Origin: Henricia sp. BOLD:AAB3569
Lineage: Eukaryota > Echinodermata > Asteroidea > Spinulosida > Echinasteridae
DNA: 64,000 nt
Reading direction: 5' to 3'
Assembly (NCBI GenBank): GCA_037783545.1
Contig: JBBELK010000517.1
Span: forward strand, 1,488,001-1,552,000
The position numbers and the translations under genes are program-made. Shown piece after piece: positions 25,701 to 28,700 of this stretch. Numbering within the stretch: the stretch's first letter is position 1; every line of letters begins with the position of its first letter. The notes beneath the pieces were generated by a model. That model was given only the letters and a program-made list of their open reading frames with translations, searched no databases and was not told where the DNA came from.

Positions 25701-28700
25701 CTCGTCAGCAATGCGCGCGCGCCAAATTCGTGCCACGAAATACGCAGCTTTGTGCCTTTGCTATGGAGCTGCAGATTTCGTATCACGAATTTGGCGTGCG
25801 TGCATTGCTGACGAGCCTGTACCTTTAAAATTATGTTTAAAGCTGTAAACCTAAATTCCAATTATTCTTTCTGAATTCATACGTACAGATCAAGATGTTG
25901 CCAACTCCAGCCAAATTCCACTATGTGTTCAACCTGCGTGACCTGTCCCGTATCTGGCAAGGAATGATTAACACACTGAATGAGGTCGTTACCTCACAGG
26001 AAGTGCTGATGTGGCTATGGAAGCATGAATGTATGAGAGTCATCGCTGACCGATTTACTAACCCACAGGTAAGGCCAACTGACCAACACAAGTTTCGGAA
26101 ATAAGCTTCCCTGAACGCTTACAGTCTTAACATTTGGGATGGGAGAAAAATCTAACTTTAGCGTCCAGAGTTATTTTTTAGGAAAAATTAGCTACTATGC
26201 TTCTCCTAAAATGCATTTTAGATAATGACCACAATCAAGCCGAACCTGCCGACCAATCACAACAGAGCTAGCAGACATCACCCACATAGGTCAAAGTGCA
26301 CTGTCTCACAATAATTAACATCACGCGATGTTCTGCCCCATACAATTTGTACAGTGTTGTATGCGATAATCCGGGTGAATTTTTGGTTTCAAGGCCGGTC
26401 GTTTCGTTGTTCAAAGGTGCGAAAGCACATATTTCATGATATGACCTCCCTGTATTACTGGCCCTTTACTCAGTGTGTTTTAAGATAACTGGCGGCCCTG
26501 TAACATGAATATCTTTGAGTTTTCTCCAATGAATCTGTGCTTTCCGTTGAAAGTCGCATTGCTTTGTGCGTTTTGACGATAGTGTGAGGCATAGCAACAA
26601 TATCCAAGGGGGCGGGGTTAACTGGGCAAAATCGGAACTATGCATTGGCTCTGGATGTGAAAACTAAGAAACATTTGGGGGAAAACATGGTCACACTCAC
26701 AGATTTCGAAAAAATTAACCTGTTACAATAGATTTTTTAAAAAAGTAACATGATCCAAGAAAACAAACTTGCAAGCAAATTTGACATTATCTTCTAGCAT
26801 TGTGGCTATACGTTTGTGCAATGAGTGGTTTCAGAACAGAATACACTGCATAATAACTTGCTTCAATGAATTATTACTGAATGAAAGGTTTTGGACTGCT
26901 TTCATGACTTATTTCTATGCCACCTTTTCCTTGTGTCCATTGTCTAGGATACTGAGTGGTTTCAGAAGACCATGGGTAGGGTGGTGGGAGAGGAGCTAGG
27001 GGAGCAACTGCAGAGCTTTGTGGAGCCTGATCGCTACTTTGTTGACTTCATGAGGTACTGTAAAAGCCAATATTTTCGTGTACAGATATTTTCGCGCATT
27101 TCAACATCACTGACATTTTCGCGAGTTGTTATTTTCGCGAATGGAAATTATGTTTTGTTTCAGGGATTGCCACAATCGTTGCAAACAATATTTCCGGGGG
27201 TTGTTATTTTCGCGGGCTCTGTCTGGTGCGCGAAATGCGCGAAAATAAAACCACCGCGAATATTTCAGCTTTTACAGTAGGTTGAACCCAGAACCTGTTT
27301 TACACTATTATTGTGGATACATTCAAACACCATGCTGCACTGGGCTGCATTCCAAATACGCGAACACTGCAAACGTTTGCAACGTTGGCCAACAACTGGT
27401 ACCTGGCTTTCCATAGGCGAGTGCATAAAAGCACTGTAATCAGTGGCGAAGGTTGGCAATGTTCGCGTATGTGGAACGCAGCCCAGGCTTTGAGTTACTG
27501 ACTCGGATCGCTTTTTTTTACTCTGCGAATCGACTGAAGTATCAAAAATCTCGAAAGGTCATGTCAAAACATGTAACATCAGTAATACTCGTTTCTCATG
27601 TCTGTAGCTAATTAACAATTAAGCTTAATTGCCTATATAATGCTGAACACTTGACTGTATATCCCCCTCGAAACTATCCAAAATATTATATAAATATTGT
27701 TTTTTGATACAAATGTAGACAAAAGACCACCAGTTGGCGTCATAGCTCAATTGGTAGGGCGTCTGCATGTTAAGTAGAAAGTCTACGGTTCGAATCCCGG
27801 TGGAGCTAAGTTGCTTTTCACTGCATCCAGATTTTCAAAACTCATGGACATTTGTCCACGTTTGTATCAAATTTATTCACCCTGGCAGTCCCTGGGTCAT
27901 AATCCCTAAAATATAATCACTTATTCATACAAGATTGTTTTTGTGTAATTTAGTATTATTTTTACCCGTGCTCTACCTTAATTGTATGAGCAATGTTTTT
28001 TGTAGCCAATTTAAAAATGAAAGTTGGGAACAAACCATGCCGATATGGACCCTTTGCACCAACAGCCATGTTAGGGGCAGGTTTTCTCATTTAAATGATG
28101 TGACAATAGATCCACAAAGTGCCTACTCATGCCTGAGCCATGGGGACAAAACACTTGCCCCCAAGATGGCTGTCATGCAAAATATCTATTGTCTGATATT
28201 CAGGGATGCAGCGGAGGCAACAGGCGAAGAACCTGAAGATGCAGACTTTGACATGCCCAAGATCTACGAACCCGTTGACACGTTTGAAGTCCTGGAGGAA
28301 AGGCTTCAGATGTTCATGGGTCAGTATAATGAGAGCATCCGGGGAGCTAACATGGATCTGGTCTTCTTCAAGGATGCTATGATTCATCTTGTCAAGGTAA
28401 GAAGAACCAAGAAAATAGCGCTCCCGATTCCTTTACTGCACGCAGAGATTAAGCCCGCCGCACACCTTTGCGATTTACCGGATAGTCGGATCATCGGACC
28501 ACTTACCGGAAAGGTGTGCGCTGAAACAGTTCGGGCCGGTTTGACTGCACACCATGGACCGGAGCAAATCAGACTTGTTTGATTTTTCCGGATCCGATGG
28601 TCCGGTGTCCGATGGGCCGGTAAATCGCAAAGGTGTGCGGCGGGCTTTAGACAACGGATTCTCTATTTGCATTGAACGCTAGCAGGAAATGGTGAAACTG

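Follow-up and report, generated by a model that had tools for sequence, protein, structure and literature searches.

Rushforth and Anderson reportedly described in 1996 the splicing of Tc1, a TA-duplicating element with ends resembling splice sites, from C. elegans pre-mRNA, and an insect case of transposon-caused mis-splicing is also said to have been reported (PMC6522560). Three other systems share individual traits with the locus described here. In the mulberry cases, a foldback element lies at a splice site, and the use of alternative 5′ splice sites is one of the predominant modes associated with MITEs (PMC6593561, in excerpt). In introners, which are introns made by DNA transposons, the target duplication contributes to the 5′ splice site (PMC9860276, in excerpt). 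In [D1,2] stwintrons, a donor is interrupted by an insert, and near-terminal complementary 10-mers bring the termini together (PMC12403724, in excerpt).

Our locus lies in a window of 64 kb, by which we mean the whole stretch of 64,000 nucleotides that was analysed, and comprises a MITE-like foldback element within the first 225 of the 1149 nt of a dynein intron (27055-28203), directly at the splice donor (Table 1). Among the matches listed in our search of the literature on transposons and splicing, judged by titles and abstract openings, none plainly concerned an animal MITE splitting a donor, which is no proof of absence.

The host gene and the element

Nine PDB searches with 15-kb plus-strand frames (stops as X, coverage 5001-49999) identified the host as a DNAH5-like axonemal dynein heavy chain gene, DNAH5 (8j07_n0) being the top match in seven of them, with no PDB match at E 1e-60 in the other two. 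A PDB search with the spliced peptide again returned DNAH5 (8j07_n0) as the best relative. On these matches, the gene appears to be a DNAH5/8-type axonemal dynein, DNAH5 and DNAH8 not being distinguished. The second-best relative, PDB chain 9fqr_I3 (4730 residues), is a dynein heavy chain by alignment; its molecule name is given as Cilia and flagella associated protein 57, which is probably a label mix-up.

A script joined 25 anchored exons with 24 introns between 5.7 and 38.5 kb on the basis of frame and similarity, and the joined product is free of stops. The exon that meets the element, the 19th of those anchored from 5.7 kb on, is in frame with 26068 upstream and 28204 downstream; both of its junctions are supported by frame and splice sites, and by the later DNAH5 alignment, with no human letters there. 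Splicing from 27054 to 28204 produces FVDFMR/DAAEA (a slash marks a splice junction throughout), and the alignment of the joined product with DNAH5 (8j07_n0, 2828-2975) contains one 2-residue gap and is ungapped at this junction. The insertion site corresponds to residue 420 of a 710-residue spliced stretch in which Pfam matches AAA_lid_1 at 320-395 and AAA_8 (D4) at 471-710, which places it between the AAA3 lid and AAA4.

The element has several features of a MITE, being short, bounded by TIRs and TA on both sides, and without transposase coding in its 220 bp. Its ends, CTGTAAAAGC and GCTTTTACAG, pair over 10 bp without mismatch and, with the TA counted in, 23 nt match at 83%. The resulting hairpin is stronger than chance, with a z of -6.6 for the fold of 27055-27279 and none of 200 shuffles folding equally well. 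Of an element derived from Tc1/mariner, one would expect a TA target and a TIR in common with a parent transposase element, of which the TA is seen here; the excerpted accounts of the Lucina MITE (PMC4732748) and of the Sclerotinia Tc1-mariner elements (PMC4188875) concern elements different from this one. No second copy was found in the 64-kb window, either with the 21-mer end at up to 3 mismatches, which matched only itself, or by blastn to E 1, where the hits comprised the element itself, repeats internal to it and two matches of 21 nt (E 0.48). Allowing 1 mismatch, the 10-bp end occurs at 8 sites in the window, where 5.65 are expected. Four strings taken from the element occur, singly or together, in 46 papers, and among the 25 titles listed none concerned a transposon.

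Donor scores given below as gene-own come from a matrix built on the gene's 23 other donors only, a small sample that itself scores 3.47-11.99. When the flanks of the element are joined with a single TA, they read GAG/GTAGGT, with a gene-own score of 6.95. We also considered GG as the target duplication, with TA inside the inverted repeat; this would leave an empty site of GAG/GTTGAA, which at -0.05 scores below the lowest real donor, and it was rejected. A TA duplication has only 2 bp and is weak alone, but here it is backed by the donor restored on joining the flanks, and we prefer it because the exon needed a donor at this place and only the TA join restores a good one. The best reading of these letters, and a well-supported one, is that a TA-duplicating inverted-repeat element inserted into an existing donor GAG/GTAGGT. 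The first-pass annotation had placed the left duplication and the first bases, CTG, of a 220-bp MITE within the donor GAG/GTACTG, and these coordinates were confirmed; its claim that the right duplication recreates ACA/GTAGGT at 27276/27277 is borne out by the sequence, and its ancestral donor GAG/GTAGGT is supported by the rejoined flanks.

Fifteen of the 23 other donors carry TA at +2/+3, as does the inferred ancestor, which suggests GTA donors as targets for TA-duplicating elements. The introns hold 1828 TAs. An element entering an intronic TA at random would land in a donor about 1 time in 100 and foldback repeats are many, so a hit in a donor is not astonishing. Between 5000 and 39000, the dynein introns contain 65 inverted pairs of at least 20 nt.

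Further foldback repeats in the dynein introns include 25670-25846, 31555-31695, 24975-25098 and 37063-37231 (among 25 of the 65 pairs that were listed), and foldback elements by the exon pair lie at 27340-27486 (44-nt arms, 84%) and 28451-28647 (40-nt arms, 90%). The interrupted intron also carries a tRNA-like sequence on the + strand (Rfam tRNA, 43.9 bits, 27736-27808), flanked by 33-nt inverted-repeat arms (27703-27735 and 27839-27871, 82%), and thus a tRNA within a foldback element at 27703-27871. With ARAGORN, no tRNA was reported anywhere in the window, the Rfam match included.

Table 1 Features of the interrupted donor and its surroundings, in window positions.
Feature	Position	Strand	Basis or remark
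Exon, end of AAA3 region	26948..27054	+	107 nt; acceptor TCTAG/GAT, donor GAG/GTACTG; encodes DTEWFQ...FVDFMR
Present donor, intron side, GAG/GTACTG	27055..27060	+	TA is the left duplication, CTG the element start; best of 76 GTs
In-phase open extension, 222 nt, 74 codons, if donor 27276 is used	27055..27276	+	frame check through exon from 28204
Left TA target duplication	27056..27057	+	sequence
MITE-like foldback element, 220 bp	27058..27277	+	inverted repeats, fold; 10-bp perfect TIR CTGTAAAAGC
Acceptor-like site inside element, TTTGTTTCAG/GGA	27164..27164	+	strongest of 45 AGs; position is first base after site
Alternative donor inside element, CTG/GTGCGC	27226..27231	+	exon end 27225; +171 nt, 57 codons
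Right-hand donor, intron side, ACA/GTAGGT	27277..27282	+	gene-own score -1.89, rank 43 of 76; from right duplication
Right TA target duplication	27278..27279	+	with G27280 forms first in-frame stop, TAG (27278-80)
Following exon, leads into AAA4	28204..28396	+	frame/similarity join

Strength and accessibility of the donors

We scanned all 76 GTs in the exon and in the intron up to 28203, naming each donor by its last exon base. With the gene-own matrix, 27054 scores 6.75, a small drop from the 6.95 of the old site, and five of the 23 other donors score lower. Donor 27276 falls below every real donor owing to its exon side, ACA; an A at -1 is found in none of the 23 others. Donor 27225, inside the element, reaches 6.35 and ranks third of the 76, which makes it a better in-frame alternative than 27276, and one absent from the first-pass annotation. 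In 2000 bootstraps each at vertebrate weights of 4, 20 and 60, donor 27054 outscored 27276 in 99.8, 99.9 and 99.3%, respectively, and 27225 outscored 27054 once the weight of the vertebrate prior was at least 20.

Two further measures disagree with this ranking. A vertebrate matrix, used alone, gives 4.48 for 27054, 4.92 for 27276, 6.70 for 27225 and 9.85 for the empty site; a value as low as either 27054 or 27276 is found for one of the 23 real donors, and in another form of this matrix 27054 is the lowest of 24. The two matrices differ because this gene tolerates a poor +5 position but has no A at -1, and the gene-own matrix was given most weight since it mirrors the gene's own usage. The laxity at +5 can be seen across the 24 donors (5921-34670), with a base other than G in 9 of the 23 others and T in 4. 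In-register pairing with U1 amounts to -10.4 kcal/mol for the empty site, -5.7 for 27054, -5.3 for 27276 and -3.8 for 27225, the last with only 4 contiguous pairs; pairing weaker than that of 27054 is seen in five real donors, and weaker than that of 27276 in three. Once the duplex may contain loops, 27054 reaches -6.6 kcal/mol and 27276 -5.3, next to -5.4 for the weakest of the 24 real donors. Minor use of 27276 is therefore possible, but weakly so, as the vertebrate matrix and the in-register pairing put it nearly level with 27054. The first-pass annotation had named reliance on a weakened donor as one of two options; weakening of the old donor is evident in its in-register U1 pairing, where the loss is large, and hardly in its gene-own score, where the loss is small.

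In the predicted RNA fold, the ends of the element pair together, and the closing helix holds both donors in one stem, a point absent from the first-pass annotation. Opening energies, predicted here from folding energies of protein-free RNA, are highest for 27054 among the 24 donors in full context (10.0-11.2 kcal/mol by context). The empty site was itself fairly closed (7.4-7.6 kcal/mol), and among 40 random intronic GTs two match 27054 in closure. Shuffling 27061-27277 gave a mean of 5.7 and a maximum of 10.4 kcal/mol, so that none of 100 shuffles reached the 10.5 of the intact sequence, which attributes the predicted closure to the element.

For a transcript growing from 26948, opening 27054 is predicted to cost 1.7-6.1 kcal/mol with the 3′ end at 27065-27270, 7.6 with the 3′ end at 27277, and 9.0-10.5 thereafter; for 27276 the predicted cost is 8.6-10.9 kcal/mol from the moment this donor is made. 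With only 60 nt of the intron made, 27054 stands at 6.1 kcal/mol, and five of the 24 donors are more closed. This asymmetry of closure would favour 27054, assuming that U1 binds during transcription.

Possible outcomes of splicing at the donor

Taken together, we consider it likely that the element split GAG/GTAGGT, that 27054 remains the main donor with 27276 seldom used, and that both donors are closed after the right end has been made. A non-autonomous TA-duplicating foldback element would have entered at the TA of the donor; the left half, retaining the exon side and GTA, would leave 27054 usable, and most transcripts would be joined from 27054 to 28204 and encode normal dynein. The right half would retain GTAGGT and, with its exon side lost, would seldom be chosen. 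Pairing of the element ends in the RNA would close both donors only once the polymerase has passed the right end, leaving the left donor bindable first and the right donor closed from birth. The locus may thus be regarded as a natural experiment in donor survival after splitting, in which the half with the exon side appears still usable.

This preferred explanation overlaps with that of a partly damaging allele, in which dynein output would fall through slower splicing, retention of the intron, skipping of the exon or an element-derived exon that shifts the frame, since 27054 could serve as the main donor and yet be less efficient. The loss of in-register U1 pairing and the position of 27054 as the most closed of the 24 donors are in line with such damage. 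Also, the top acceptor-like site of the intron lies inside the element, at 27164, with a score of 11.8 against 9.9 for the true acceptor at 28204 (which the matrix includes; 6.3 with 28204 left out), both cassettes tested from 27164 shift the frame, and so does exon skipping. We nevertheless hold damage of this kind to be unlikely, given a gene-own donor score that has nearly kept its old value and 25 anchored exons that join without a stop.

Real alternative splicing, in which a noticeable share of the protein would gain 57 or 74 residues through use of 27225 or 27276, strikes us as distinctly improbable. The first-pass annotation had claimed that 27055-27276 is 222 nt long, open and in the same phase as the next exon, with TAG at 27278-80 as the first stop, and that the 74 added codons would fall between AAA3 and AAA4; all of this was confirmed, the location through the Pfam matches and residue 420 of 710. 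The extensions from both 27225 and 27276 keep the frame and stay intact to the end of the next exon, and among 5000 dinucleotide shuffles of the 222 nt, 198 leave the 74-codon frame open, in a post hoc test on one copy that leaves a further one-in-three chance of a phase-keeping length outside the count. An open frame of 222 nt is uncommon, but no proof of coding. In favour of added residues, the site falls in a linker that precedes an acidic loop, gapped in three of the five dynein alignments shown (two of the three near-identical), 27225 has a good gene-own score, and 27276 is about equal to 27054 on in-register U1 pairing. Both donors have counterparts to these merits, however, 27276 in a gene-own score below all real donors and 27225 in its 4 contiguous U1 pairs at -3.8 kcal/mol. 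The extension itself contains no acidic residues and has a net charge of +8 and a mean hydropathy of 0.5 (73 of 74 residues), which would make it an improbable addition to a conserved AAA ring; a Pfam search to E 1 gave no match for the exon with its extension, which is weak evidence, as the next exon alone is also without a match. Of the earlier proposal of two donors and a 74-residue choice, the in-phase extension stands, whereas the donors are unequal by gene-own usage (6.75 vs -1.89). A functional 74-codon choice is a weak proposition, and a 57-codon choice a somewhat less weak one.

We give very little credence to a regulated variant, in which the donor halves would pair in the pre-mRNA and the choice of splice site would be set by a helicase or the speed of elongation: rapid binding of U1 would lead to normal dynein and late melting of the stem to use of 27225 or 27276, with 57 or 74 residues added between AAA3 and AAA4. 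If this self-paired reading were true, any TA-duplicating foldback element in a GTA donor would build a self-paired twin donor, and a twin donor in use would constitute a general, testable route from transposon insertion to regulated protein insertion.

A stwintron-like internal intron (27055-27277, GT...TTTTACAG) that rebuilds the outer donor, or a recursive splice point, is hardly credible: the termini GT and ACAG would leave A/GTAGGT, the acceptor-like sites at 27278 (2.4) and 27281 (4.5) have scores that fall among those of real acceptors (-0.6 to 11.8) and fungal [D1,2] stwintrons likewise have near-terminal complementary 10-mers (PMC12403724, in excerpt), but these sites rank only 15 and 8 of the 45 AGs, the two-step product is one base short and out of frame, running into a stop at position 154 of the stretch tested, and the recursive route rebuilds the donor GAG/GTTGAA at -0.05. 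The element as an internal intron, a recursive splice point or a cassette exon was rejected on these grounds, the frame being broken or the rebuilt donor weak.

Comparison with described systems

From the Tc1 case, as reported, the locus differs in that the insertion lies in a donor and not in an exon. Compared with the mulberry cases as excerpted (PMC6593561), the element here splits one donor and its duplication makes a putative second. An introner would make a whole intron, which we rejected for an element that spans 27058-27277 of an intron running from 27055 to 28203; here, relative to the excerpted account of introners (PMC9860276), the element covers only part of the intron, and the acceptor in use is not supplied by it. 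With the [D1,2] stwintrons, as they appear in the excerpted report (PMC12403724), the contrast lies in the outcome of removing the insert, which at this locus breaks the frame.
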